Shown in pieces: positions 391-27,890 of a stretch of DNA of 28,255 bases. Made by a program: the position numbers and the translations under genes. Within the stretch, counting starts at the first letter, position 1. The number at the start of each line of letters is the position of its first letter. The DNA is from a virus, in the IMG/VR virus record IMGVR_UViG_3300031227_000303, positions 1 through 28,255 of that record; one strand, 5' to 3'. Under the pieces are notes generated by a model. That model worked only from the letters and a program-made list of their open reading frames with translations, ran no database searches and was not told the DNA's origin.

Positions 391-543
391 TACAAGGGAA
401 GCGGGAATAGAGGTACAGTACTACTAAAGACATTAAAAGGCAAAGTACGTACAAGAACTATATACAAAACTAATATTAACGTCTTTTAATCGGAGATAAG
501 AAGCGATAGCTTCTTGAAACGTATTAAAAGGCGTGTTTTTTTT
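391..543 (+). ncRNA. Candidate small structured RNA
   Basis: A transcript from the promoter at 356-384 would run to a T-run at 536-543, about 150 nt. Two structured parts are visible. First, GTAC (413-416) and GTACT (418-422) pair with AGTAC (444-448) and GTAC (449-452), giving a 9-bp stem with one bulged A. Second, a 12-bp outer stem (479-490 with 523-534, one G-U) encloses a 7-bp hairpin (498-504 with 509-515, loop GATA). The decamer ATTAAAAGGC occurs twice, in the first loop (432-441) and in the terminator arm (523-532). Both copies can pair with 481-490, so the RNA could switch between two folds. I do not recognise a known family. The minus-strand frame opposite it has a TTG start with no ribosome binding site and looks spurious. 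Confidence 0.6.
479..543 (+). terminator. Compound hairpin with T-run, ends the candidate small RNA
   Basis: Outer arms 479-490 and 523-534 pair over 12 bp with one G-U. The inner hairpin 498-515 has a 7-bp stem and 4-nt loop. Eight T residues follow at 536-543. The outer arm is AT-rich, so it is weaker than a textbook intrinsic terminator, but the geometry is right. Confidence 0.6.
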
Positions 544-1678: not shown

Positions 1679-1963
1679 ATGAAGATATTCCTTGACGACA
1701 TACGAAACGCTCCTGATAATAGTTGGGTAGTTGTCCGTGATGGGCATATTTGCATGAATCTTCTATCAACTGGAATAGTAACTGAAATAAGTTTTGACCA
1801 TGATTTAGGTGATGACTGGTGTAATGGATATGATGTACTTTGTCATATTGAGTTATTAGTTTGGCATGGAGCTATTTTAAAGCCCATTATTTATATACAT
1901 ACTGATAATGCCGGAGCAAGAAATAAGATGGTTTTGGCTAAGAAAAAGATAGAGGAAATGTGA
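1679..1963 (+). CDS. cREC domain protein (cyclic-phosphate processing receiver-like)
   Basis: A 94-residue protein that is essentially one domain. The N-terminal strand MKIFLDDIRNAP has the LDD-x-R signature, followed by FDHDLG near residue 40, a GYD element, and a late strand with IHTDNAGARNKM. These fit the family annotated as cREC, a receiver-like domain that comparative genomics has linked to processing of cyclic phosphate RNA ends. The next gene is the RNA ligase RtcB, which overlaps this stop codon by one base and itself joins 2',3'-cyclic phosphate ends. The neighbourhood therefore supports an RNA end-processing role. The biochemical activity of the family is a prediction and is not proven by this sequence. 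Confidence 0.75.
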   Translation: MKIFLDDIRNAPDNSWVVVRDGHICMNLLSTGIVTEISFDHDLGDDWCNGYDVLCHIELLVWHGAILKPIIYIHTDNAGARNKMVLAKKKIEEM

Positions 1964-3135
1964 TGAAATGGATTAATACAGATAATATAGTTCTAATTAA
2001 ATCATGGTGTAAAGATTTAGAGGAAGGGGCTTTAGCACAAGTAGAAAATTTAGCTAACCATCCATGCGTGTTTAAGCACGTAGCCATAATGCCAGATTGT
2101 CATGTGGGATATGGAATGCCTATTGGTGGGGTAGTAGCATTAAAGGGTGCAGTAGTGCCAAATTTTGTCGGGGTGGATATTGGCTGTGGGATGTGTGCGG
2201 TAAAAACTACTGCTAAGACTAGTGGGGTTACTACTGGTATATTACATCGGATTATTGATGATTTAAAATTAAGAATTCCAGTAGGTAAAGAACACAGGAA
2301 AGCCCCCCTTGATTGGGGTGGATTTGATGACCCAGATTTATGTTCTATAATTAAGGAGAATCTTAAATCTGCTGGACATCAACTAGGAACTCTCGGATCG
2401 GGCAACCACTTCATTGAGGTACAAGTCGATGAAGAAGGCTATATTTGGCTTATGCTCCATAGTGGTAGTAGGAATATTGGATATAGGATTGCAAATCATT
2501 TTCATAAAAAGGCAGTAGAGTTATGTAAGAGGTGGTATTCTCCCGTGGAAGCAGATAATTACTCGTCTGCTTTTCTTCCCATTGGGACTAAAGAGGCGGC
2601 TGAGTATATAACATCTATGAATTGGGCTTTGGAATTTGCCAAAGAAAATAGACGGATTATGATGAAGATATTTAAAGAAGTTATAAATTCATTTACGGGG
2701 TGTACGTTTAGTGAAGAAATAAACATCCATCATAATTTTGCGGCTATAGAGAATCATTTTCGAGAAAACGTATGGGTACATAGAAAAGGAGCAACAAAGG
2801 CTTATAAGGGGCAATTAGGGATTATTCCGGGTAGTATGGGGACGGCTAGCTATATTGTCAGAGGATTAGGAAATATTCAATCATTTAAGTCTTGCTCTCA
2901 TGGGGCCGGTAGAAATTGTGGTAGGGCAGAATTTTGTAAAACACATACCGTTGAAGAGTGTAACGAGAGTATTAAAGATGTTGTATTTTCTGGATGGGGT
3001 GATAATAGAAAAGGGAATCCTGATATTAGTGAAGCTCCAGAGGCATATAAGAATATTGATGAAGTAATAGAATCACAATTGGATTTGGTAGATATAGTAA
3101 CAAAATTAAGACCTTTAGCAGTAATGAAGGGATAA
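1963..3135 (+). CDS. rtcB: RtcB family RNA-splicing ligase
   Basis: A 390-residue protein covering the whole RtcB fold. The metal site GVDIGCG supplies Asp72 and Cys75, GSGNHF and HSGSRN carry histidine ligands, IHHNF follows, and SHGAGR supplies His313, the residue expected to be guanylylated. The C-terminus ends in a PLAVMKG-type tail as in complete RtcB proteins. RtcB joins 2',3'-cyclic phosphate or 3'-phosphate RNA ends to 5'-OH ends using GTP and manganese. I chose the ATG at 1963, which shares a base with the upstream stop and sits 6 bases after AGAGGA. A GTG at 1960 is too close to that site. With the cREC gene it forms a translationally coupled RNA-repair pair. No key residue appears to be missing. 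Confidence 0.95.
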   Translation: MKWINTDNIVLIKSWCKDLEEGALAQVENLANHPCVFKHVAIMPDCHVGYGMPIGGVVALKGAVVPNFVGVDIGCGMCAVKTTAKTSGVTTGILHRIIDDLKLRIPVGKEHRKAPLDWGGFDDPDLCSIIKENLKSAGHQLGTLGSGNHFIEVQVDEEGYIWLMLHSGSRNIGYRIANHFHKKAVELCKRWYSPVEADNYSSAFLPIGTKEAAEYITSMNWALEFAKENRRIMMKIFKEVINSFTGCTFSEEINIHHNFAAIENHFRENVWVHRKGATKAYKGQLGIIPGSMGTASYIVRGLGNIQSFKSCSHGAGRNCGRAEFCKTHTVEECNESIKDVVFSGWGDNRKGNPDISEAPEAYKNIDEVIESQLDLVDIVTKLRPLAVMKG

Positions 3136-3139
3136 ATAA

Positions 3140-4105
3140 ATGCTTTTAGAAGATATTGGCTTTTACACCCTATCTGATGATAGAGCAAAAAATGTTAGTA
3201 TTGATAGTCCTTTATGGCGGTGTGAATTATTGCTTACTGATAAATGTACCTTTAAGTGTCCTTATTGTAGAGGAATGCGGGAAGATCTTCGTGGGACATT
3301 AACATTCAAGGAAGCAAAGAACGTGGTAGATTTATGGATTGCAGAGGGGCTTAGAAATGTCAGATTTTCTGGGGGTGAGCCTACTGTATGGAAGGACCTT
3401 GTAAAATTAGTGGCCCACTGTAAGAAAAATAATGTAGAAAAAATAGCAGTTTCTACTAACGGTTATTCTGACTTAGATTTATATAAAAGATTAATAGATG
3501 CGGGAGTAAATGATTTTTCTATATCATTAGACGCATGTTGTGCCGCCGTTGGTGATAGAATGGCCGGTAGAAAAGATTCGTGGGATGTGGTAGTAAAAAA
3601 TATTAAAGAAGTAAGTCAACTGATTTATACTACCGTTGGGATGGTTTTTACTAAGGAAAATATAGCACAGGCCAAAGAAAATGTTCTATTTGCAGACTCA
3701 TTGGGCATTTCAGATATAAGAGTTGTTCCAAGTGCTCAGTATAATAAGGCTTTAAAAATTTTAGAAACGTTGCCGAGTGAGATTTTGGATAAGTATCCTA
3801 TTTTAAGATATAGAATAAATAATGTTAAAAAGGGTAGAAATGTTAGAAAAATGACTAAAGAGGACAGTGGTAAGTGTTGGTTGGTTTTAGATGATGCCGC
3901 TATTGCGGGTGGTTATCACTTCCCGTGCATTATTTATTTGAGAGAGGGTGGAAATCCAATTGGTAAAGTTGGGGACAATATGCGGAAAGAGCGTGAAAAT
4001 TGGATGAATGTCCATAATTGTTGGGAAGATAAAATTTGTAGAGAAATGTGTTTAGATGTTTGTATTGATTATAATAATAAAGTGGCTAAATTTAAAGAGA
4101 CATAA
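3140..4105 (+). CDS. Radical SAM protein, MoaA/SPASM-like
   Basis: A 321-residue enzyme with the radical SAM cluster ligands C36, C40 and C43 (CTFKCPYC), GGEP near residue 80, and a STNG and SLD strand pattern of the TIM-barrel core. A Cys-rich C-terminus (CWEDKICREMC, then DVC) and C249/C265-type cysteines suggest an auxiliary cluster as in SPASM or twitch domains. Such enzymes often modify peptides or sugars by radical chemistry. The substrate is unknown here. It starts 5 bases after the rtcB stop in a GGGATAAATAAATG context, and tRNA-Thr follows 7 bases after its stop. Its place between RNA-repair genes and tRNAs leaves RNA modification possible, while the glycan-type genes further on suggest another role. 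Confidence 0.85.
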   Translation: MLLEDIGFYTLSDDRAKNVSIDSPLWRCELLLTDKCTFKCPYCRGMREDLRGTLTFKEAKNVVDLWIAEGLRNVRFSGGEPTVWKDLVKLVAHCKKNNVEKIAVSTNGYSDLDLYKRLIDAGVNDFSISLDACCAAVGDRMAGRKDSWDVVVKNIKEVSQLIYTTVGMVFTKENIAQAKENVLFADSLGISDIRVVPSAQYNKALKILETLPSEILDKYPILRYRINNVKKGRNVRKMTKEDSGKCWLVLDDAAIAGGYHFPCIIYLREGGNPIGKVGDNMRKERENWMNVHNCWEDKICREMCLDVCIDYNNKVAKFKET

Positions 4106-4112
4106 ATAATGT

Positions 4113-4185
4113 GCACTCGTAGCTCAAGTGGTAGAGCATGGGTTTTGTAAATCCAAGGTTGGGGGATCATGGCCCTCCGAGTGCT
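4113..4185 (+). tRNA. tRNA-Thr(UGU)
   Basis: A complete cloverleaf. The acceptor stem is 4113-4119 with 4178-4184, perfect over 7 bp. The D arm is GCTC/GAGC. The anticodon stem is 4139-4143 with 4151-4155, with loop TTTGTAA and anticodon TGT at 4146-4148. A 5-nt variable loop and T stem GGGGG/CCCTC (one G-U) follow. The T loop reads ATCATGG instead of the usual TTCRANY. No CCA is encoded. It reads ACA, a codon used heavily in the threonine tracts of the structural genes downstream. Confidence 0.88.
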
Positions 4186-4200
4186 TTTAAAAAATAAAGC

Positions 4201-4228
4201 TTGTAAAAAGGAATAAATAAGGTATAAT
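4201..4228 (+). promoter_or_regulatory. Possible promoter ahead of the small basic ORF and tRNA-Gln
   Basis: TTGTAA (4201-4206), a 16-bp spacer and perfect TATAAT (4223-4228). The predicted start coincides with the ATG at 4235, so a transcript would be leaderless for the small gene. It would also serve tRNA-Gln. Confidence 0.45.
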
Positions 4229-4234
4229 ATTCAA

Positions 4235-4348
4235 ATGCAGAACTATGACGAGTATGATGAAAAACGGGAACGCAGGGAGTCAAAGAAGGAAAAGCAGAAG
4301 CTCCAGCACAAGGAGCAGAAGAAAAAGAAAAGACGGATAAAGGAATAA
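4235..4348 (+). CDS. Tiny highly charged, basic protein (37 aa)
   Basis: ATG at 4235 opens 37 codons of almost only charged residues: an acidic start (MQNYDEYDEKRERRE) then a Lys/Arg/Gln helix ending in KKKKRRIKE. No Shine-Dalgarno sequence sits at normal distance. The nearest AAGGA is over 20 bases upstream, beyond the TATAAT. Codon choice (CGG, CGC, AGG, CTC, GAG) is richer in G and C than the neighbours. It lies exactly between two tRNA genes. If translated it could be an RNA- or DNA-binding peptide. It could also be a non-translated spacer. Confidence 0.4.
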   Translation: MQNYDEYDEKRERRESKKEKQKLQHKEQKKKKRRIKE

Positions 4349-4353
4349 ATCAT

Positions 4354-4425
4354 TGCCCCATAGTATAATAGGTAATACCAAAGCTTTTGGAGCTTTTATT
4401 TCAGGTTCAAGTCCTGATGGGGCAT
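4354..4425 (+). tRNA. tRNA-Gln(UUG)
   Basis: The acceptor stem TGCCCCA (4354-4360) pairs perfectly with TGGGGCA (4418-4424). The D stem is GTAT/ATAC. The anticodon stem is AAAGC/GCTTT with loop TTTTGGA and anticodon TTG at 4387-4389. The variable loop has 4 nt, and the T arm has a 5-bp stem and a canonical TTCAAGT loop. No CCA is encoded. It reads CAA. Fold quality is high. Confidence 0.9.
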
Positions 4426-11308: not shown

Positions 11309-11351
11309 ACTAAAATTTAGTTATTGAAATATCTCCAAAATATGATATAAT
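11309..11351 (+). promoter_or_regulatory. Structural-operon promoter P1 with upstream box
   Basis: TTGAAA (11324-11329), a 16-bp spacer and TATAAT (11346-11351), with TG one base before the -10 (extended -10). Five bases upstream of the -35 lies ACTAAAATTT (11309-11318), which is part of a 15-bp palindrome, 11308-11322. The same box, spacing, spacer length and TATAATG occur at 17831-17874. Predicted start is near 11358, 72 bases before the terminase ATG. Confidence 0.75.
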
Positions 11352-11429: not shown

Positions 11430-14156
11430 ATGCCTACCAAAAAGAAAAACCCACTCACAACAGATACAATCGATTTTGCAAAACTTTATACTCCGACTAG
11501 TAAACAAATGGAAGCACATTTACGACCGGAGAAGTATATATTATTTGGGGGAGCAATGAGAGGAGGAAAATCGGTTCACAAAGATACTATAGTGTTAAGT
11601 AAGACTAAAGGATATATTCCTATATGTGAAGTAGAAAAAAATGATTTTATTTTATCTATGACGGAAAAAGGCAAGTTAGAATACTCAAAAGTATTGAATA
11701 CAAATTATATTCCAAATGAACTTACTTATAAAATTACTACTAGAACAGAACAATCTATTATTTGTAGTTATACGCATCCCGTCTTAACGCAACGGGGGTG
11801 GGTAAGATATAATGAATTAATTTTGGATGATAAGATTGCAATTTCTAGACAGCACCCTTCTCCCGATTTAGAATTTTCTGAGATAATTTATGATGGGTGG
11901 TGTCTTGCTATCATTGCACATTTAATTGGGAATGGGTGCGTAACAGAAGGCACTCCAGTTCTATCTTGTTTTAATTTAAAACAAATTCAATTTCTACTTC
12001 GTATTTTGCCTGAAAATTTTAAATTTACTGAATATAGCGAAGGAAAATTTGGTATTTCAGACCCAAAGAATCCCGGTAAAAATTTATTAACTGATATATT
12101 AAGAGAATTAGGGCTATATGGTAAAACTAGTTATTATAAGTTTATTCCTCATCAATATAAAAATCTTTGTAAAGAAGATTCTGCTTTTTTCTTAAATTGT
12201 CTTTATGGGACGGATGGTTGGGCTTGTTTGGGTGAGAAACGTTGTGAGGTTGGTTACACTAGTACAAGTAAACAATTGGTTCTTGATGTTAAAGATATGC
12301 TGTTAAAATTTGGTATTGTTGGTATGTTTAGTCAGAAAAAAACTCCATCTGACTTTGGAGTTGCTTATACTATATCTATTAAACGAGCCAATGATATTAA
12401 AAAATTTATTAAAGAAATTGGGATTTATGGTAAAGAAACGGGGACTGGGGCTTGTTTAGCTCGATTAGAAAATACTAAGTGCTCATTTAACGGTGATACT
12501 ATTCCGAAGATTATGTTTAAGCATCTTTTGGATGGTATGAGTTGCTCTAAAGGGACTAAGCAATATAAATTAAAGAAAAATTTTAGATATTTAGGACAGC
12601 CCACTGTACAACGTCAATATCTTCAAGAAGCTATTAAAGATTATCCAGAATTTGGTGTTTTGTATGACGTTGCACATTCTGATTTATATTGGGATGATAT
12701 TAGATCGTTGGAGAGCCTTAATAAAGAAGAAAATTTATATGACTTAGAGATAGAAGGAAATCATAATTTTGTAGCTAATAATATTATTGTACATAACTCC
12801 GCTTGGCTCGTTGCAGAAGCTCTGCAACTCTCCTTCGATTACCCCGATAATAGGGGATTTTTATGTAGGCATGAAGCCGCTACATTTATGAAGACCACCT
12901 ATTTAGAATTAATGAAATTTTTACCGCCAGAAGCCATAGCTAATCATAACCAGAGCAGACAGTTTATTGAATTAATAAATGGTAGCCGTATTGACTATGG
13001 TGGGTTGAAGGCCACTGAAGGCGCAAAGTCTTTGGAACGATTAAAATCAATGACATTAGGTTGGTTTGGAATTGATGAAGCGACTGAAACAAATGAAGAG
13101 TTGTTTAAATTATTAATGACTCGTTTATCCTTGAAAACACCACGTTCCCCAAATATGCATTTCAGGGGAATGATAACAGCAAATCCAGAGCCGGGTTGGG
13201 TAAAGCAACGGTTTGTAGACCAACAACAAGATAATTATTATTTTGTATCTGCACTTCCTAAAGATAATCCCCATAACCCAGATACCTATGAGTCAGAATT
13301 ACGGAGAGAGTTAGAAAAAGACCCTGAGTGGGTGGCTCGATATTTAGACGGGGATTGGGAAGTTGATTCCCTGACCCCATTTCCATTGGTATTTCCTTTA
13401 TCTAATATTAGGTCTGCTGTAGATTTGGGGAGATTGGATAAGTGGGAAATTATAGAAGATACTAAAGATAAAGATAAAGATGAAGAATGGAATCCAGAAG
13501 TAGATGGGGAACAAACAGCAGAAGCCAAAGAAAAAAAGAAAAAAGATAATACAACAGTTGTACTCGCCGCTGATATTGGTGCTGGAACTGGTGGTGATGA
13601 GTCAGTGCTTGTTTCAAGAATCAATGGTTTCTGTAAATTAGAATTTCGTAGTAAGAAGATGAACACGATGGCTTTTGCTGGAAAAATAGGCCAGACGGCG
13701 ATAGAGTTAGAGGCAGAAGGTTTTTCAGTTGACAGGATAGTGGTTGATGGGACTGGATTAGGAATTGGTGTTTGTGATAGATTAGATGAAGATGAATATT
13801 TAAGAAAGCGGCTGGAGAGATTTATTGCTGGTGGAAAGCCCAGAAATAAAGAAAGGCTTAAATTAAATAAGCATGAACTGTTGACGAGAGATTATTTTAA
13901 TGCGAAAGCTGAAGCATATTGGGAATTTAGAGAAGCAATGCAGGAAGGTAAGGTATCTTTACCTGATGATACTGATTTATTATCTCAGCTTCAGCCAATT
14001 AGATATAGGTTACGTTCTGATAGACAAATTCAAATTGAATCAAAGGATGATTTAAAAAGGCGTGGACTCAAATCTCCTGACATTGCAGAAGCATTTATTA
14101 TGCTATATGCACGAGGAAGCAGGGTCGCATCTGATTTGAATATTTTTTATATTTAA
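11430..14156 (+). CDS. terL: Phage terminase large subunit, interrupted by an intein
   Basis: A 908-residue precursor, about 499 residues after splicing. The ATPase domain has Walker A GGAMRGGK|S, split by the intein, and Walker B WFGIDEA. The C-terminal nuclease has an RNase H-like core beginning with ADIGAGTGGDES, then VVDGTGLGIG and the late acidic SPDIAEAF. A Lys/Glu-rich linker (about residues 672-706) joins the two. The enzyme powers DNA packaging through the portal and cuts concatemers. GGAG precedes the ATG. It is the first gene of the structural block and is followed by the portal gene after 15 bases. Without splicing the P-loop would be disrupted, so packaging should depend on protein splicing. 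Confidence 0.95.
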   Translation: MPTKKKNPLTTDTIDFAKLYTPTSKQMEAHLRPEKYILFGGAMRGGKSVHKDTIVLSKTKGYIPICEVEKNDFILSMTEKGKLEYSKVLNTNYIPNELTYKITTRTEQSIICSYTHPVLTQRGWVRYNELILDDKIAISRQHPSPDLEFSEIIYDGWCLAIIAHLIGNGCVTEGTPVLSCFNLKQIQFLLRILPENFKFTEYSEGKFGISDPKNPGKNLLTDILRELGLYGKTSYYKFIPHQYKNLCKEDSAFFLNCLYGTDGWACLGEKRCEVGYTSTSKQLVLDVKDMLLKFGIVGMFSQKKTPSDFGVAYTISIKRANDIKKFIKEIGIYGKETGTGACLARLENTKCSFNGDTIPKIMFKHLLDGMSCSKGTKQYKLKKNFRYLGQPTVQRQYLQEAIKDYPEFGVLYDVAHSDLYWDDIRSLESLNKEENLYDLEIEGNHNFVANNIIVHNSAWLVAEALQLSFDYPDNRGFLCRHEAATFMKTTYLELMKFLPPEAIANHNQSRQFIELINGSRIDYGGLKATEGAKSLERLKSMTLGWFGIDEATETNEELFKLLMTRLSLKTPRSPNMHFRGMITANPEPGWVKQRFVDQQQDNYYFVSALPKDNPHNPDTYESELRRELEKDPEWVARYLDGDWEVDSLTPFPLVFPLSNIRSAVDLGRLDKWEIIEDTKDKDKDEEWNPEVDGEQTAEAKEKKKKDNTTVVLAADIGAGTGGDESVLVSRINGFCKLEFRSKKMNTMAFAGKIGQTAIELEAEGFSVDRIVVDGTGLGIGVCDRLDEDEYLRKRLERFIAGGKPRNKERLKLNKHELLTRDYFNAKAEAYWEFREAMQEGKVSLPDDTDLLSQLQPIRYRLRSDRQIQIESKDDLKRRGLKSPDIAEAFIMLYARGSRVASDLNIFYI
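11571..12797 (+). mobile_element. Intein with LAGLIDADG homing-endonuclease domain in terL
   Basis: In-frame insertion of 409 codons (residues 48-456). It begins with Ser (SVHKDTIVLS, block A), has block B as SYTHPVLT, two LAGLIDADG-type motifs (AHLIGNG near residue 170 and CLYGTDGW near residue 265), then block F YDLEIEGNHNFVANN and block G IIVHN, followed by extein Ser457. Removing it restores GGAMRGGKSAWLVAEA, a normal terminase P-loop. It is a Ser1 intein with Ser+1. In the first LAGLIDADG motif the usual Asp is Asn, which may weaken or remove DNA cutting by that half-site. Inteins in terminase P-loops are known; this one looks able to splice. Confidence 0.92.
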
Positions 14157-17825: not shown

Positions 17826-17870
17826 ATACCACTAAAATTTTATTATTGACTTCTATAAATTTTGTGGTAT
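17826..17870. repeat. Imperfect inverted repeat around promoter P2
   Basis: Arms 17826-17840 and 17857-17870 pair over 14 bp with a single bulged T at 17833. The 16-bp loop contains the -35 element and the right arm overlaps the -10. As RNA it could end transcription from upstream (no T-run follows). As DNA it could be an operator or cruciform. Confidence 0.55.
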
Positions 17871-17873
17871 AAT
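17831..17873 (+). promoter_or_regulatory. Structural-operon promoter P2 with the same upstream box as P1
   Basis: TTGACT (17846-17851), a 16-bp spacer and TATAAT (17868-17873) with TG one base before it. ACTAAAATTT (17831-17840) lies exactly 5 bases upstream of the -35, as at P1. It would give extra transcription of the scaffold-like and capsid genes. Confidence 0.75.
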
Positions 17874-17927: not shown

Positions 17928-17978
17928 TTTCTCGTGAAATGCTACTAAAGCCTTGCTCAATAAGCACTTAGCGAGAAA
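17928..17978 (+). promoter_or_regulatory. Leader hairpin covering the start region
   Basis: TTTCTCG (17928-17934) pairs with CGAGAAA (17972-17978). Inside, TGCT (17940-17943) pairs with AGCA (17963-17966) with two mismatches between. It ends 4 bases before ATG 17983 and places the alternative TTG 17953 in the loop. An ACCTCC segment just upstream (17914-17919) is complementary to the internal ribosome binding site GGAGGT at 18105-18110. Translation control is possible. Confidence 0.4.
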
Positions 17979-20288: not shown

Positions 20289-21026
20289 ATGCCGGTGAAT
20301 GAAGAATCTAGGCAAACAACTCTTCTCCCAGTTCAAAATTACACGGACAGGATTATAATTAGTGATGGTGGCAGAGTCGAAGATCAGGGAGGGGCCTCCT
20401 TTGAAGATGATTTCTTAGGCGATCTTATTGCTGATCAATATGCCGCTAATGCTGATGGTGGTGGAGCTTCAGCTATTGTTGCCGCCGTTGGTGGGACAGT
20501 AGGAATTACTACCGCCGCTACTAATGATAATAAATCAGAACTTACCGCTGAATTGAATTGGGCTGCTTCAAAGTCAGTTATATTTGAAGCAAGAGTGACT
20601 GTAGACGCAATTACTACAGTTAATTTTGAAGTTGGGTTGAATGATGCTAAAACAGAGGGGGCAACAACCCTTCCGTTTAGCGACAATGATACGCCTACTG
20701 CCGTTGCAACAAATGCTGTAATGGTTGGCTTTGATACAGATGCATCAACTAATACTAATTTAACTGCCTTAGTTGTGAAGGCTGGAGTAGCACAAGCCCT
20801 TGATTTAGGGGTCGCTCCTGTGGCCGCAACATATAATATCATACGTATTGAAACTAATACGGATGGGGATGCTGATTTCTTTGTGGATGGTGTTTACAAA
20901 GGCTCATTAGCAGACGCAGTAACAGCAGCGACTGCTCTCACTCCTTATATGGGAGTTCAAAACAGGACGACTGTTATTACTCGTAAGTTGACGGTTGACT
21001 ATCTCCATTTATATCAGGATCGTTAA
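20289..21026 (+). CDS. Lectin-like virion protein A (no Thr tail)
   Basis: A 245-residue protein. After an N-terminal anchor (ESRQTTLLPVQNYTDRI) there is a beta-rich domain with FEDDFLGDLIADQYAANADG at the start, NWAASKSVIFEARV, IRIETNTDGDADFFVDG and VDYLHLYQDR at the end. This is the pattern of a concanavalin-like jelly-roll: an opening D-F/D-D-F, an IFEARV strand and a last strand. It is a tandem paralogue of the next gene, with the same anchor, and differs mainly by lacking the threonine tail. AGGAG precedes the ATG. Likely a capsid-decorating or carbohydrate-binding virion protein. The lectin role is inferred from fold pattern only. Confidence 0.6.
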   Translation: MPVNEESRQTTLLPVQNYTDRIIISDGGRVEDQGGASFEDDFLGDLIADQYAANADGGGASAIVAAVGGTVGITTAATNDNKSELTAELNWAASKSVIFEARVTVDAITTVNFEVGLNDAKTEGATTLPFSDNDTPTAVATNAVMVGFDTDASTNTNLTALVVKAGVAQALDLGVAPVAATYNIIRIETNTDGDADFFVDGVYKGSLADAVTAATALTPYMGVQNRTTVITRKLTVDYLHLYQDR

Positions 21027-21047: not shown

Positions 21048-21875
21048 ATGCCTGTAAATCCAGAATCAAGACAAACTGGACTTCTCCCCATTCAAAACTA
21101 TACTGATAGAATTGTAGTTCATACTGGTGGTAGGATAGAAAATGCTGGAGGCCCTGCTTTTGAAGATGATTTCTTAGGTGATGTAATAGCTGACCAGTAT
21201 GCCGCTAATGCTGACGGGGTAGGAGATACTGCCGTTACATCGGAAATTGAAGGCGCTATTATAGTTTATACGTCAGCGGCCAATGATGAAAAGTCTGAGG
21301 TTGCTACCGAGTTGAACTGGGCCGCTTCTAGGTCTGTTATATTTGAAGCAAGAGTACAAATTGAGGGTGATATTACAACGGTTAATGCCCAAGTTGGTTT
21401 GAATGACTCAAAGGTTGAACCGGCTTCTAATCTTCCGTTTAGTGATAATGACACTCCCACAACTGCAACAAATAATGCTATATTGGTAGGATATGATACA
21501 GATGCAGCTACCAATACTAATTGGACGGCATTGACTGTTAAAAGTGCGGGAACACCACAAGCCCTTGATTTAGGTGTGTTACCAGAAGTAGATGAATATA
21601 ATGTAATTCGCATTGAAACCAATACAGATGGAGATGCGGATTTCTTTATAGATGGTACTTACGTTGGAACTTTGGCTGATGCTGTAGATGCTGAAACGCC
21701 CCTTACTCCTTATTTTGGATGTCAAAATAGGTCGGCGGCGACAAGAACTGTGATGGTTGATTATTTACATTTATATCAAAATCGTACTGGTGATGCTGAT
21801 ACTGTTACAACCACTACGACTACAACGACAACGACGACTAGTACGACGACCACAACGACAACCACTACTCCGTAA
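21048..21875 (+). CDS. Lectin-like virion protein B with C-terminal Thr tract
   Basis: A 275-residue paralogue of the previous gene, alike along the whole domain (PVNPESRQTGLLPIQNYTDR, NWAASRSVIFEARV, ETNTDGDADFFIDG, VDYLHLYQNR). The extra C-terminus is TGDADTV followed by 21 residues of Thr with one Ser, and a final Pro. The duplication of the whole gene, followed by addition of the tract, is the simplest history. The tract may be a spacer, a glycosylation target or a joining point that once led into a further domain. AGGAG precedes the ATG. Confidence 0.62.
   Translation: MPVNPESRQTGLLPIQNYTDRIVVHTGGRIENAGGPAFEDDFLGDVIADQYAANADGVGDTAVTSEIEGAIIVYTSAANDEKSEVATELNWAASRSVIFEARVQIEGDITTVNAQVGLNDSKVEPASNLPFSDNDTPTTATNNAILVGYDTDAATNTNWTALTVKSAGTPQALDLGVLPEVDEYNVIRIETNTDGDADFFIDGTYVGTLADAVDAETPLTPYFGCQNRSAATRTVMVDYLHLYQNRTGDADTVTTTTTTTTTTTSTTTTTTTTTP
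21807..21869 (+). repeat. Threonine-codon tract (21 codons)
   Basis: Mixed ACA/ACT/ACG/ACC codons, 20 Thr and one Ser (AGT), at the very end of lectin-like protein B. Synonymous codons are mixed, so the DNA is not a simple trinucleotide repeat. Confidence 0.95.
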
Positions 21876-21933
21876 TGGAGAAGTTTAAATTAAAGTAAGC
21901 TGTTGGACAACTCATTGTTGTTTTCCTAAATTT

Positions 21934-21957
21934 GTGGGGGGATTAAGTTCCCCCTAC
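21934..21957 (+). terminator. GC-rich hairpin in the gap before the next structural gene
   Basis: GTGGGGGG (21934-21941), loop ATTAAGTT and CCCCCTAC (21950-21957) form an 8-bp stem with one G-U. It is stable enough to pause or stop transcription but is followed by an A/T mix and not a T-run. TATAAT at 21962-21967 has no matching -35, so I do not call a promoter. Confidence 0.4.
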
Positions 21958-21992
21958 AATATATAATAGCACCTTTTTTGGAATAGTTTAAT

Positions 21993-22391
21993 ATGTATCC
22001 AAATAAAACTTTCAATGTTTCAGATAGGCTTGTAATTGGACCAGTTGCTCGTACGTTGGAGACTTTGTTGGGCCGAGAAATTTCGTTGGAACTTCAGTGG
22101 CTAACTGTTCGTAATGTTGGTGATGCTACCATTTATTTTTCAACAGATACAGCGAGTACAAATTCGGCCCCTTTAGCAGAAAATGAAGTTATTACTTTTG
22201 TTCAAAATCAAGCTAATTTTAATGAGTTATCTTTTATTACCGGAGGCGCGGCGCAACCATTAGTTGTTATTGAAGGTAGAGTTCATTGGGAAATTCTTGG
22301 TGCAGCTACCGCATTTCCTACTATTACTACTACTACAACAACTACTACGACTACAACAACAACTACTACAACAGCAGCACCACAACAATAA
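21993..22391 (+). CDS. Small virion protein with C-terminal Thr tract
   Basis: A 132-residue protein. A beta-rich body (ELQWLTVRNVGDATIYFSTD, VVIEGRVHWEIL) is followed by 16 Thr residues in a row and AAPQQ. The body resembles small phage proteins that cap or decorate, and the WLTVRN-x-G-x-x-TIYFS pattern is like immunoglobulin- or cupin-type strands, but I cannot name a family. The ribosome binding site is weak (GGAA). It lies between the two lectin-like genes and the tail-tube-like gene. The tract makes it one of five Thr-tailed or Thr-linked proteins here. Confidence 0.55.
   Translation: MYPNKTFNVSDRLVIGPVARTLETLLGREISLELQWLTVRNVGDATIYFSTDTASTNSAPLAENEVITFVQNQANFNELSFITGGAAQPLVVIEGRVHWEILGAATAFPTITTTTTTTTTTTTTTTTAAPQQ
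22326..22373 (+). repeat. Threonine-codon tract (16 codons)
   Basis: Sixteen successive ACN codons (Thr only) near the C-terminus of the small virion protein, followed by Ala-Ala-Pro. Confidence 0.95.
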
Positions 22392-22425
22392 AGAATTATC
22401 ATATAGTTAGTGGAGTAACAAAAGT

Positions 22426-23364
22426 GTGGCTCGATTTTCAGGTAAAGATGGTTATTTCAAGGTCAATGAAACAGGAAGTGTGCCAGAGGAAACTCTGGCT
22501 ATCACTAACTGGACTTTAAATATAGAATCAGAGCAAATAGAGAACTCCGGTTTAACCAGCGATGGTTGGCGGGAGTTTTTCATTGGAATGAAGTCTTGGA
22601 CTGTCTCTGCTTCCGCGCATTGGGAAACCACTGAAACTAAAATATATAGATCCGACCCTACTCCTCCAATGATTTCAGTAGATAATGAATTAGATTGGCA
22701 AGGAATTTCTGATTCTACTTATGGGTATCAATGGCAAGGAACAGTAGTTGTTTCTAGGGTATCAGTGGAAGTTGGAATTGACGCAACAGTTAAATATAAT
22801 ATAACTGCAATAGGTACTGGGGAATTAGTTTATCCTATAGACGTTGACCTTACTACAACAACTACAACGTCAACTACTGCTGCTCCAACTACAACTGGAG
22901 CCCCCACAACAACGGAACCGCCGTCTTCAACGGCATTTCCTCCAATTACAACTACGACTACCACTACAACGACAACTACTAGCACTACGACTACTACAAC
23001 TACGACTACCAGTACGAGTACAACTACTACTACGACCACTAGCACAACCAGCACTACAACGACAACTACTAGCACTACGACCACAACGACTACTAGTACA
23101 ACAACCACAACTACAACGACGACTACAACAAGCACGACTACAACGTCAACTACTACGACAAGTACCACCACTACTAGCACAACGACGACTAGCACAACGA
23201 CTACTACTACGTCAACAACAACAGCAGAATATTTATTTACAGATTATTTTGACGATGAATCATTAGACGCAAGATGGGTCAAAGAATATGGTACTGCTGG
23301 AGCAATTAGTGAAACTGCAGAGCCAGGATTCTTACAAATAACACCAAGTAAGGGAGGTATTTAA
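22426..23364 (+). CDS. Tail-tube-like protein fused to a long Thr-rich region
   Basis: A 312-residue protein starting with GTG (GGAG upstream). Residues 1-140 have the order seen in siphovirus tail-tube proteins: FSGKDGYFKV, WTLNIESEQIE, SDGWREFFIGMKSW, a central strand pair, and VEVGIDATVKYN with GTGELVY at the end. After that come about 124 Thr-rich residues with Ala/Pro/Ser/Glu breaks. The last about 45 residues (YFDDESLDARWVKEYG) look like only the first strands of a lectin-like domain, cut short by the stop. The tube-type fold before the head-tail connector gene is an unusual order, so it may instead be a decoration protein with the same fold. Confidence 0.6.
   Translation: MARFSGKDGYFKVNETGSVPEETLAITNWTLNIESEQIENSGLTSDGWREFFIGMKSWTVSASAHWETTETKIYRSDPTPPMISVDNELDWQGISDSTYGYQWQGTVVVSRVSVEVGIDATVKYNITAIGTGELVYPIDVDLTTTTTTSTTAAPTTTGAPTTTEPPSSTAFPPITTTTTTTTTTTSTTTTTTTTTSTSTTTTTTTSTTSTTTTTTSTTTTTTTSTTTTTTTTTTTSTTTTSTTTTSTTTTSTTTTSTTTTTTSTTTAEYLFTDYFDDESLDARWVKEYGTAGAISETAEPGFLQITPSKGGI
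22852..23223 (+). repeat. Long Thr/Ser tract with Pro-Ala breaks
   Basis: Codons 143-266 of the tail-tube-like gene, nearly all ACN, with Ser roughly every 5-12 residues and a Pro/Ala/Glu/Phe patch near 22878-22950. Mucin-like composition. Confidence 0.95.
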
Positions 23365-23366
23365 CA

Positions 23367-24014
23367 ATGAGTTACCTTGATCAGAAGCGAGAATTAGAGA
23401 TAGAACCATATGAAGCGGCAGCAGAAGAAGCTGGAACGAGTGAAGTTTCTGACGTTCAGGAAAAAGAAGTTATTTATCCTATAGATAAAACAACACGGAG
23501 ACAAAAATTAGGATATTCTTGTCTATTAAAAGAAGCGGCTCGTAGAGAACATGCACAAAAACAAATTGATAATAAAGATGGGAAACTCTCAGATGAGGAT
23601 TTTTCTTCTTATAAAGAAACGTATGAAGTTAGTATGAGGGCAATTAGTAAATCTATTAGTGATAGAAAACAAGATTCTACACTGGAAGATTTAAATGAAG
23701 TTGATTTAGTAAATCATATCACATTTGATAAAATAAATATTCCAGTAGAAAAAGATACGTGGGAAAAGCAGTTGGGTTGGGCGTTAGATGCTAGAGAAAA
23801 AATGCGTAGAGACCATAATGAAAAGGGAACTGCTTATAGAGATGGCGATTGGTCTAATTCTCAATGGGTTTATTTTAAAGATTCCTTTGATGCAAAAAGT
23901 ATGGTGCTTTCAAAGAAAATTAATGACTTGAAAGATAATCCTCCTCAAGCGGATATAGATTCAATAGTAATTATTGATGTAGTTAAAGACAAAATAAAAA
24001 TGGTTGAAAAATAA
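23367..24014 (+). CDS. Hypothetical helical protein with an internal duplication
   Basis: A 215-residue, charged, mostly helical protein. Two halves align: KTTRRQKLGYSCLLKEAARR...KETYEVSMRAISKSISDRK (from about residue 41) and KDTWEKQLGWALDAREKMRR...KDSFDAKSMVLSKKINDLK (from about residue 131). Both run LG-(Y/W)-x6-R-E-(H/K) and end in an SKSI/SKKI helix. So the gene arose by internal duplication of a unit of about 60 residues. GGGAGG precedes the ATG. It sits two bases after a Thr-rich gene and directly before another, but has no Thr tract itself. It may be a chaperone or linker for these virion proteins. Function unknown. Confidence 0.55.
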   Translation: MSYLDQKRELEIEPYEAAAEEAGTSEVSDVQEKEVIYPIDKTTRRQKLGYSCLLKEAARREHAQKQIDNKDGKLSDEDFSSYKETYEVSMRAISKSISDRKQDSTLEDLNEVDLVNHITFDKINIPVEKDTWEKQLGWALDAREKMRRDHNEKGTAYRDGDWSNSQWVYFKDSFDAKSMVLSKKINDLKDNPPQADIDSIVIIDVVKDKIKMVEK

Positions 24015-26114
24015 ATGGCTTATGAAGACCTAACTGGCTTTACGCAGGTTGACCCGAACAGTAATTACACAACAACAACCATAAAGTGTACCTTTGCCGC
24101 CTTAAGGCGCGATGCAGATGCCTACGTTTATAAATCATATGGCTCAAATTATTTTGGTGATTTTGCCCACAGTTATGATTTTGAGTGGACGGCACAAACC
24201 GCGAACGCCGAACTGGTTGGGCTTTGGGCGGTTACCGATACTCCTGCCAGTCACGGTGATATGTGGGCTAATGCCAATGGCCTTGTCACGTATATTGTTC
24301 GTGGCTGGCAGGGAACAAAATTAGGACTTGCTAATTATGCTGGGCATAATGAGGACCACTCCTCTGTGCTTTCAAAAGATACCCAGTATTGGGTAGATGT
24401 TTCCCGAGATGGCACTGCTGGGGAAGCTAAGATATATTCCAATGCAGCCAAAACAACCCTTGTTGATACGGTGTCTGTGGTGACATCCGAACAAGAATAT
24501 GAATATTTAATGTGTGGCTGTTCAAGGGAAGATGGAAATGATGGTGGCGACACATTTACTGGTTATAGCGAAAATTATGATTTAGATGCTGATGCAACTA
24601 CTACAACTAGCACCACTACAACAACTACAACCACCTCTACTACAACTACTACGACAACAACGACGACCACGAGCACCACTACGACGACAACTAGTACAAC
24701 TACAACAACTACAACAACTACGACTACCAGTACAACGACGACTACGACTACAACGACAAGCACCACTACTACGAGCACAACGACGACAACAACGTCTACT
24801 ACTTCAACAAGCACAACGACAACTACCAGCACTACTACAACGAGCACAACGACTACCACTACAACGGAAGCTCCAACTACAACAACAACGACTTCTACAA
24901 CAACAACAGCCGGGGCTGATTATACATTTACGGGCGCGGGAACGACCGATTCCAATGGTGATTATACTGAAAATGGAACAAATTTAGGTAAGCCAGCTTA
25001 TGAAGGCCCAAATAATTATTGGTTGAGCTTTGATAATGCAATGGGTGATTATTGGTGTATTACCCCTGCTGGAATTTGGCCGGTCGAAGCGGCTGATTAT
25101 TTTCTTGCAGGTAGTGGTGATACTCCGCCATTGGGGGAATATGCGGCTTATAATGGAGACGCACCGAATGGAACATTGGCAGAAGCCACAACTACCACAA
25201 CAACAACTACGACCACTTCTACTACAACTACTACAACTACGACTAGCACGACAACCACTACTACAACTAGTACTACGACAACAACGACGACCACGAGCAC
25301 CACTACGACGACAAGCACCACTACTACGAGCACAACGACGACAACAACGTCTACTACAACTACTGAGGCCCCTTATGGCCCATGTTGGGCGTATCAAATA
25401 GCGGATAGTGATTTTGATGTATATACTTATTTTACTAACAATGGAACTGTAAATAGAATTGAAGGTGGGCTACACTGTGCTAATGATGCAGAAACAGCAA
25501 GAGCATCAATAAGATTATATTATTATAATGGAAATTGGGAAATTGGTTTAAAAATAAATAGTAATTCTGAAGTTATTGATAATGCGTATGCGTTTGACGC
25601 AGTTTATTTTAGAATGAAAAGAGTTGGAAGCACTTTTACTTATTACCATGCCCCTCCGGGATATTATGCTTGGGGATTAATTCCGTGGGAAGAAATTACA
25701 CCTACCATTGATAATATTAGTACTGCTGATTCTATGAATTTGGGATTGTATGGAGTAACTAATGGAAATGAGATACAGAGTACATTAGATTATAATTTCT
25801 TTATTGTATTAGTGGGGGGGCCTACTAAGACCACTACTACGACTACTACTACCACCACTACTGCGGGGCCTGTTCCAGATGATTGTTGTGCCGATTGTTA
25901 TTGTGATACTGCTAGTCAAGGAACAGTTTTAGGCGAGTGTACGTGGGATAGTGGTGATTGTGGAAGCGCAGGTACAGGTTTTTGTACTTACACTGAGACT
26001 GCTAGCATTTGTGCGACGGGCATTGGTGGCGATGCTTATGGTGCAGATTGTACGGCTGGAACTGGAACGGAAACTTCTTATGATTATACAAGTGATAATT
26101 GTGTCCCGGTTTAA
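24015..26114 (+). CDS. Large multi-domain virion protein with three Thr tracts
   Basis: A 699-residue protein. Domain 1 (about 1-194, MAYEDLTGFTQVDP at the start) is concanavalin-like and paralogous to the gene at 26794. Thr tract 1 (codons 195-298) follows. Domain 2 (about 299-391, YTENGTNLGKPAYEGPNNYW) resembles short binding repeats of environmental phages. Thr tract 2 (392-450) follows. Domain 3 (about 451-603, CWAYQIADSDFDVYTYF) is lectin-like. A short tract, then a Cys-rich end (about 617-699) with CCADCYC and CTWDSGDC follows. Expected role: receptor- or glycan-binding fibre or decoration protein. It follows the previous stop immediately, suggesting coupled translation. Confidence 0.65.
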   Translation: MAYEDLTGFTQVDPNSNYTTTTIKCTFAALRRDADAYVYKSYGSNYFGDFAHSYDFEWTAQTANAELVGLWAVTDTPASHGDMWANANGLVTYIVRGWQGTKLGLANYAGHNEDHSSVLSKDTQYWVDVSRDGTAGEAKIYSNAAKTTLVDTVSVVTSEQEYEYLMCGCSREDGNDGGDTFTGYSENYDLDADATTTTSTTTTTTTTSTTTTTTTTTTTSTTTTTTSTTTTTTTTTTTSTTTTTTTTTSTTTTSTTTTTTSTTSTSTTTTTSTTTTSTTTTTTTEAPTTTTTTSTTTTAGADYTFTGAGTTDSNGDYTENGTNLGKPAYEGPNNYWLSFDNAMGDYWCITPAGIWPVEAADYFLAGSGDTPPLGEYAAYNGDAPNGTLAEATTTTTTTTTTSTTTTTTTTSTTTTTTTSTTTTTTTTSTTTTTSTTTTSTTTTTTSTTTTEAPYGPCWAYQIADSDFDVYTYFTNNGTVNRIEGGLHCANDAETARASIRLYYYNGNWEIGLKINSNSEVIDNAYAFDAVYFRMKRVGSTFTYYHAPPGYYAWGLIPWEEITPTIDNISTADSMNLGLYGVTNGNEIQSTLDYNFFIVLVGGPTKTTTTTTTTTTTAGPVPDDCCADCYCDTASQGTVLGECTWDSGDCGSAGTGFCTYTETASICATGIGGDAYGADCTAGTGTETSYDYTSDNCVPV
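24597..24908 (+). repeat. Threonine-codon tract 1 (104 codons)
   Basis: Nearly all ACN with scattered Ser codons and one Glu-Ala-Pro break near the end. It links domain 1 to domain 2. Confidence 0.95.
25188..25364 (+). repeat. Threonine-codon tract 2 (59 codons)
   Basis: Links domain 2 to domain 3. Its second half (25271-25357) is built from two exact pieces of tract 1. Confidence 0.95.
25271..25357 (+). repeat. Exact repeats of tract 1 joined with a 69-bp deletion
   Basis: 25271-25314 equals 24647-24690 exactly (44 bp). 25308-25357 equals 24753-24802 exactly (50 bp). The offsets differ by 69 bp, or 23 codons, so tract 2 looks like tract 1 with an in-frame internal deletion. The junction is a shared 7-base ACGACAA. 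Confidence 0.85.
25830..25862 (+). repeat. Short threonine-codon tract 3 (11 codons)
   Basis: Eleven ACN codons between domain 3 and the Cys-rich C-terminal domain of the large virion protein. Confidence 0.9.
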
Positions 26115-26129
26115 CAGGAGATAAAATAA

Positions 26130-26573
26130 ATGGTTTGTCCTTATGAAATATCCAGAACAGATAAAAATGCTAAATGCTCTCAGCTTTGTTCTGCTTCTGG
26201 ATTTACTGTTTCAGTTAGTCTAAAGTTGTGTGAAAAATGTGATAAAAAACCCCTTGAAACTTCAACATCAGTGAAGGCTATGTTGGTATCAGCACTACGC
26301 TCTAGGTTAATAGCTGGAGATTGTCCTCGTTATCAAGTCCCTAACCCTGTAGATATAAAAAAGGCAATGACAAAGTTAAAATCTCTAATCAGTAATGATG
26401 CGTTAGAAGAAGTTTTTGAGAGTATGATTTATAATCAAAGTAGGATAAAAGAATCTGATGGGGGACATCCCCTTACTACTTTAAATACTAAATTTAATGA
26501 GATAGCAGTTGAATTTGAAATGCAGCCTGTACTAGAAAAATTAGCAGGAAAACATAATGGCAGTAGTAAATAA
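26130..26573 (+). CDS. Hypothetical protein with Cys-rich N-terminus
   Basis: A 147-residue protein. Cysteines at about residues 3, 16, 20, 34 and 37 (CPYE, CSQLC, CEKC) are spaced for a metal or Fe-S site. The remaining 100 residues are helical, with NPVDIKKAMTKLKSLI and EVFESMIYNQ. No family recognised. AGGAG precedes the ATG, and the stop overlaps the next gene by 17 bases. Together with the following zinc-ribbon gene it interrupts the run of lectin-like virion genes, so the pair may be non-structural. Confidence 0.55.
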   Translation: MVCPYEISRTDKNAKCSQLCSASGFTVSVSLKLCEKCDKKPLETSTSVKAMLVSALRSRLIAGDCPRYQVPNPVDIKKAMTKLKSLISNDALEEVFESMIYNQSRIKESDGGHPLTTLNTKFNEIAVEFEMQPVLEKLAGKHNGSSK

Positions 26574-26790
26574 TACGCCTTTTATAAACATTTTAGAAAG
26601 TCTCTCCATGCTTAGAAATGGTGAAGATAATATAGTAAAAGCACGTAGAGCTATTTGTAATGAATGTTCTGAACATTATTTTAAGAAGAATGTATTAAGA
26701 TGTAAAATTTGTGGGTGTTCCGACCCCACCACTAAGCGCCCCCGTTGTCCTGTGGGTAAATGGGGAAAATCTTTAGCAGAATTGAAGTAA
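26557..26790 (+). CDS. Small zinc-ribbon protein
   Basis: A 77-residue protein. C-x2-C (CNEC) near residue 34 is followed by CKICGC near residue 49 and a Cys-Pro near residue 64 (RCPVGKWG), the pattern of a rubredoxin-like zinc ribbon common in phage structural regions. The N-terminal 30 residues form a helix. It overlaps the previous gene and precedes the lectin-like gene at 26794 by 3 bases. Many phages encode such a protein next to tail or fibre genes, with unknown role. Confidence 0.6.
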   Translation: MAVVNNTPFINILESLSMLRNGEDNIVKARRAICNECSEHYFKKNVLRCKICGCSDPTTKRPRCPVGKWGKSLAELK

Positions 26791-26793
26791 AAT

Positions 26794-27588
26794 ATGGCAT
26801 ACGAAAATTTAACTACATTCACTGAAGTTGACCCTAATGGGGATTTTACGCTAACTGCTACTCGATGTACAGTAGATACTATGCGTAGAGATGTAGCTGC
26901 ATGGGTTTTTAAATCGTATGGAGCCAATCACTTTGGTGATTTTGATCACGATTTTACATTTGCTCACACAGGTGGAACTGTAAATACAGTATCAAATTGG
27001 GGTGTTTGGGGTGTTACTGACATTCCCGGTACAATTGCTGACAATGAAGATGGCATTTATATTGAAATTGATATGTCATATCCGCGCCTTCGGTTCCTGA
27101 ATCTTGGGGTATATAGTGCGGATGCTTGGAATGGTTTAGTAGCCCTTACAACTTATTACTGTACAGTCACTCGTAATACTACTACTGGACAATTAAAGAT
27201 TTATTCTGATTCTGCTCGAACGATACTATTAGACACCCTCTCTGTTACAGCAGCAGCAACTCAATTTGAGTATTTATTGGTAACTCAATCAACAGAATCA
27301 GGTATTAATCCTGACCAAACGATATCCGGTTATACGGAGAATTTTGATTTAAAAGGTGGTGGAGTTACTACCACAACCACAACGACGACTACTACTTCAA
27401 CAAGTACAACGACAACAACGAGTACAACGACCACCACAACGAGCACTACTACTACGAGCACAACGACCACAACAACCACAACTACGAGTTCGCCTATTTT
27501 TACAGTAGCAAGCGTATTAAGCAATGAGTTATCTATTACAGGAACTTTAGCTCAGAATTTAACTATCAGTAGTACATTAGAACAATAA
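26794..27588 (+). CDS. Lectin-like virion protein with internal Thr tract
   Basis: A 264-residue paralogue of domain 1 of the 699-residue protein: MAYENLTTFTEVDPNGDF against MAYEDLTGFTQVDPNSNY, then AWVFKSYGANHFGDFDHDF, GQLKIYSDSARTILLDTLSV and SGYTENFDL in the same order. After about 191 residues comes a 40-codon Thr/Ser tract and a short end (FTVASVLSNELSITGTLAQN) with two near-repeats of an SxLxxxLxIxxTL pattern. The ribosome binding site is weak. Likely a second version of the same virion-surface lectin with a different tail. Confidence 0.62.
   Translation: MAYENLTTFTEVDPNGDFTLTATRCTVDTMRRDVAAWVFKSYGANHFGDFDHDFTFAHTGGTVNTVSNWGVWGVTDIPGTIADNEDGIYIEIDMSYPRLRFLNLGVYSADAWNGLVALTTYYCTVTRNTTTGQLKIYSDSARTILLDTLSVTAAATQFEYLLVTQSTESGINPDQTISGYTENFDLKGGGVTTTTTTTTTTSTSTTTTTSTTTTTTSTTTTSTTTTTTTTTSSPIFTVASVLSNELSITGTLAQNLTISSTLEQ
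27367..27486 (+). repeat. Threonine-codon tract (40 codons)
   Basis: ACN codons with Ser breaks in the lectin-like gene. A 20-bp piece, ACTACTACGAGCACAACGAC, is also found in tracts 1 and 2 of the large virion gene. Confidence 0.95.
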
Positions 27589-27599
27589 AGGGATTATTT

Positions 27600-27890
27600 A
27601 TGGCAAACAATGTATTTCAAAGAAATGAAACTATAATTTGTTCTATTACTATTACTGATGCTGATAGTGTTGCAATAAATCCTGATACATCTATGACTAT
27701 AACTATTACTGATTGTTCTGGAGATGTTATTATAGATGGAGTTGCCATGACAAATGATGCCGTTGGTAGTTATCATTATGATTATAATCCTGCTACGGAT
27801 GCAGAATTGGGTGGATGTAAAATTAGATATAAGGCAACAAATAATAGTCGTCTTACCATCGTAGATGATTACTTTAATTTGAGGGCATAA
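27600..27890 (+). CDS. Small beta-rich virion protein
   Basis: A 96-residue protein predicted as all-beta (IICSITITDADS, TSMTITITDCSGDVII, SYHYDYNPA, GCKIRYKATNN, VDDYFNLRA). This is the pattern of small immunoglobulin-like phage proteins that often lie next to the head-tail joining genes. GGGA precedes the ATG by 8 bases. The next gene, the head-tail connector, starts 2 bases after the stop. A neck or decoration role is plausible. Confidence 0.55.
   Translation: MANNVFQRNETIICSITITDADSVAINPDTSMTITITDCSGDVIIDGVAMTNDAVGSYHYDYNPATDAELGGCKIRYKATNNSRLTIVDDYFNLRA

Follow-up and report, generated by a model that had tools for sequence, protein, structure and literature searches.

The window analyzed here is a linear record of 28,255 bases from a tailed phage that has not been cultured; its capsid gene reaches at best about 36% identity to anything found, and its portal gene reaches about 30%. 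At its left edge the window opens with the start of a radical-SAM gene, which resembles an HxsC-like gene of crAss001 and shares at most 68% identity with genes in other viral contigs. Two further minus-strand open reading frames (ORFs) follow before position 1470, where a plus-strand operon starts that continues through the structural genes. The segment at 391 to 543 is flanked on both sides by these minus-strand genes and is bounded on the plus strand by a promoter and a terminator (Table 1). A first-pass annotation had described it as a stand-alone small RNA with two mutually exclusive folds, built on the logic of an attenuator, and had rightly noted that no gene follows on that strand, which is empty until 1470.

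Table 1. Coordinates of the features at and around the 391-543 unit
Feature	Position	Strand	Basis or remark
Radical-SAM gene, left edge	1-190	minus	runs off window edge
Sigma70-type promoter, TTTACA-17-TATAAT	356-384	plus	consensus scan, 11/12 matches
TTTACA box	356-361	plus	followed by 17-nt spacer
TATAAT box	379-384	plus
5' domain of the predicted RNA	391-478	plus	A-rich, weak structure, start-codon scan
Bulged GUAC stem (GUAC-A-GUACU / AGUAC-GUAC)	413-452	plus	folding
Decamer ATTAAAAGGC, copy 1	432-441	plus	exact repeat, in GUAC-stem loop
Two-part intrinsic terminator with T8	479-543	plus	folding, shuffles, window scan
GTCTTTTAAT	481-490	plus	terminator 5' arm; pairs with either decamer copy
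Decamer ATTAAAAGGC, copy 2	523-532	plus	exact repeat, terminator 3' arm
ORF, 130 aa	634-1026	minus	ORF list
ORF	1030-1335	minus	ORF list

The consensus promoter named in that annotation is present, and transcription from it is expected to start near 390 to 392. No other site in the first 5 kb reaches 11/12 matches, and the plus strand of the whole window has four such sites, this one included; the spacing of the two boxes is ideal. Judged by consensus alone, the unit has a promoter of its own, as a small RNA gene should. Two other 11/12 plus-strand promoters end at 11351 and 17873, each just 5' of structural genes, which makes it plausible that this type of promoter is used in the phage. These two promoters (11310 to 11351 and 17832 to 17873) also have a common upstream text, CTAAAATTT followed by TTATTGA, which is possibly a promoter signature of the phage.

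The compound terminator reported earlier was likewise found and proved to be very strong. Its two-part hairpin of 22 bp (479 to 534) is made of an outer helix, in which 479-492 pairs with 520-534, and an inner helix, in which 497-504 pairs with 509-516 around a GAUA loop; a run of eight T residues follows. At -25.4 kcal/mol, the fold was equalled by none of 200 shuffles (z -5.17), and the window scan ranked this terminator as the strongest in the window. The T run begins 152 nt past the promoter, a distance at which the own terminator of a small RNA gene would be expected. The plus strand, with z -4.68, folds better than the minus strand, with z -2.26; part of the difference comes from two G-U pairs in the terminator, which would be A-C on the opposite strand. 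A minus-strand function of the hairpin was rejected, since it is weaker on that strand and has no T run there. Because the flanking genes both lie on the other strand, no other plus-strand transcript is known that would need this terminator.

To compare the arrangement with chance, we defined a unit as a promoter with at least 11/12 matches followed at 60 to 350 nt by a terminator of -15 kcal/mol or lower. Of 120 shuffled strands, one contained such a unit, and the real window contains a single one, at 391-543. We therefore consider it likely that this position harbors a transcription unit about 150 nt long.

Between the expected start and the terminator, the predicted RNA is rich in A (42 of the 88 nt), and its fold is no better than that of shuffled sequences (z -0.82); the folding signal of the whole RNA resides entirely in the terminator and not in the 5' part. 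The bulged GTAC-rich stem described in the first-pass annotation does form, with 413-422 pairing with 444-452, but it is weak (-6.7 kcal/mol, z -1.03). In the nested model it is about 72 to 92% populated and closes a purine-rich loop of 21 nt (423 to 443) that holds the first decamer. A start-codon scan found no ATG, GTG, or TTG between 391 and 513, as expected of an RNA with no translated frame, an absence that is only mildly unusual for the base composition of the spacer (13% by chance). That the unit encodes a short protein or leader peptide is hardly credible: a 13-codon frame does begin with TTG at 514, but it lies within the terminator, its start is buried in the hairpin, and no ribosome-binding site is nearby, and the coding alternative was rejected for want of a usable start codon. 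A role as a CsrA sponge was also rejected, as there are just three GGA motifs.

The exact decamer repeat is real, at the coordinates given in the first-pass annotation, and both copies can pair with 481-490, as proposed there, each over 10 bp including one G-U pair. An exact decamer repeat arose in 47 of 2,000 shuffles of the 153 nt (2.4%), and a shuffled 5' part could form at least 10 contiguous pairs with the terminator 5' arm in 3.7% of cases. The transcription unit thus clearly exceeds what chance would give, and the decamer repeat and the alternative pairing exceed it just marginally, with no correction for the many places inspected. The full RNA has a minimum energy of -35.1 kcal/mol, compared with -23.9 kcal/mol when pairing of 432-441 with 481-490 is forced and -22.9 kcal/mol for the second register. 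In growing transcripts, the first alternative pairing made up at most 1.4% and the second less than 0.1% of the nested ensemble, and in this prefix folding both were gone by 530 to 535, once the terminator closes. Thermodynamic folding, which the first-pass annotation had recommended as a check, thus gives a dominant terminator fold among nested folds and does not support a two-fold switch.

These results bear directly on the idea of a switching RNA, in which 432-441 and 523-532 would compete for 481-490 in the manner of an attenuator or riboswitch. As in terminator-bearing attenuators and riboswitches, pairing of the terminator 5' arm with an earlier segment is conceivable, and it could happen before copy 2 is synthesized. 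Such systems have two comparably stable folds and a regulated gene on the same strand, whereas the alternative here, among nested folds of the full RNA, is 11.2 kcal/mol less stable, and the next plus-strand gene, at 1470, stands behind two opposing genes; with no plus-strand gene nearer than that behind the terminator, no candidate for switching is evident. The folding calculations cover nested folds, with pseudoknot energies estimated by hand. A pseudoknot between the loop of the GUAC stem and 481-490, outside the nested model, is geometrically possible and would be compatible with the stem; by these hand estimates its energy before about position 520 should be close to that of competing folds, and the terminator should still displace it. 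Weighing the real repeat and pairings against their energetic cost, their frequency in shuffles, and a 5' fold that is not above chance, we regard a switching RNA as quite improbable. Still more so is a ligand- or partner-responsive switch in which the loop-481-490 pseudoknot would alternate with the terminator hairpin and control both the length of the RNA and read-through towards the late genes.

We searched for relatives of the unit in several ways. DNA searches of phages and plasmids gave no homologue, and exact patterns with 21 to 22 specified bases gave nothing above chance in viral and genome contigs. All 4227 models of Rfam release 15 were run down to an E value of 10 with no match above the gathering cutoff; the best small RNA match was RprA, at 18.2 bits versus the 70 needed. 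When positions 341 to 560 were compared with about 110 whole virus records that share the capsid or a radical-SAM gene, a set that may omit the records nearest to the window, no convincing match was seen. The loci of 80 capsid relatives gave scattered matches at chance level, mostly of 14 to 30 nt, with one of 39 nt (E 0.06 to 0.1) inside a gene-dense, AT-rich stretch. No relative was found for the neighboring gene at 634-1026. The left-edge radical-SAM gene has relatives in 30 viral loci; where upstream sequence is present, these generally follow genes on the same strand, and no divergent promoter-terminator unit like that at 391-543 was recognized there. None of these searches yielded a homologue to align for compensatory changes, and nothing therefore points to selection acting on the RNA. 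Close kin of the phage may exist among records left out of the search, and since near kin of the window may be missing, the lack of homologues says nothing firm about conservation.

Targets were sought among the phage's own genes in the window. Predicted pairing of the RNA with their ribosome-binding sites was no better than that of shuffled RNA, and the longest exact complement, 13 nt at 12622-12634, lies in the terminase/intein frame and not at a start site. On these grounds we rejected the idea that the RNA acts as an antisense regulator of genes of the phage itself.

Taken together, the small RNA part of the first-pass annotation stands, carried by the promoter, the strong terminator with its strand bias, and a stretch up to 513 that has no start codon, and the switch part does not. 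The unit at 391-543 is likely to be a stand-alone small RNA. Host RNA polymerase would start near 391 at the near-consensus promoter and stop near 543 at the intrinsic terminator, yielding an RNA of about 150 nt that would go untranslated and have its 3' end protected by the two-part hairpin. Pairing could involve the open 5' part, rich in A and G, and the loop of 21 nt, and because of these available segments the RNA would most likely act in trans, on host RNA or on phage RNA encoded outside the fragment. We put about an even chance on this fuller reading, that of an orphan, lineage-specific small RNA gene acting in trans. The evidence for the transcription unit consists of sequence signals, and we infer from them the transcript, its ends, the action in trans, and the target.

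Two other explanations accept the transcription signals and take the RNA differently. The promoter might be incidental and the terminator an insulator that keeps plus-strand transcription from continuing antisense into the minus-strand genes at 634-1335, leaving an RNA with no function. This would fit the position of the terminator, 91 nt short of the 3' end of the opposing gene at 634-1026, as well as a 5' domain with no structure above chance and no target found. However, no source of plus-strand transcription is known to the left other than the same promoter, and a near-consensus promoter would be an odd accident at this place; we consider this explanation unlikely. The more interesting rival, since a long plus-strand operon begins at 1470, is a terminated leader. 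In lambda, the late leader transcribed from pR' and terminated at tR' is known as 6S RNA, a stand-alone RNA of about 150 to 200 nt close to the start of a long operon. The RNA at 391-543 could similarly stop at 543 until a phage antitermination factor later permits read-through across 634-1335 into the operon. The layout of a strong promoter, a short untranslated leader, and a strong terminator heading a long plus-strand block is the same, and the promoter-like sites immediately 5' of gene 1470 are weaker (9/12). Against this, two opposing genes, absent in lambda, lie between the RNA and the operon, the terminase gene and the later gene at 17953 each carry an 11/12 promoter of their own, and neither an antiterminator gene (a Q-like factor) nor a pause site was recognized in the fragment. 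We therefore hold the leader to be rather improbable; were it correct, it would be an antitermination layout spanning opposing genes.

For the small RNA gene, the closer comparison is with trans-acting small RNAs encoded by phages, of which PreS of lambda and SprY of prophage phi12 are tabulated in PMC12197685. Like these, the RNA at 391-543 would be a short phage transcript with no reading frame, and SprY is of similar length, at about 125 nt. The transcripts and targets of PreS and SprY have been demonstrated, whereas 391-543 is known here from signals in the DNA. The small RNAs of uncultured phages have scarcely been catalogued, and its unusually clean start and stop signals make 391-543 a fair candidate for transcript mapping.

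Several other features of the window were recorded. A block at 1679-4425 holds a cREC gene (cyclic-phosphate receiver domain), an RtcB RNA ligase gene, a radical-SAM gene, and two tRNA genes (Thr-TGT and Gln-TTG), a combination suggestive of RNA repair. Its radical-SAM gene (3140-4105) is widespread: a 735-kb phage and at least 80 viral loci contain relatives, which are 47 to 63% identical. An intein interrupts the large terminase gene (11430-14156) in frame and carries a homing-endonuclease domain of the LAGLIDADG type (Pfam Intein_splicing and LAGLIDADG_3). Two adjacent genes at 20289-21026 and 21048-21875 are paralogous, with products beginning MPVNEESRQTTLLPVQNYTDR and MPVNPESRQTGLLPIQNYTDR, respectively, and from about 21800 to 27600, downstream of the capsid gene, several proteins contain long threonine-serine tracts.
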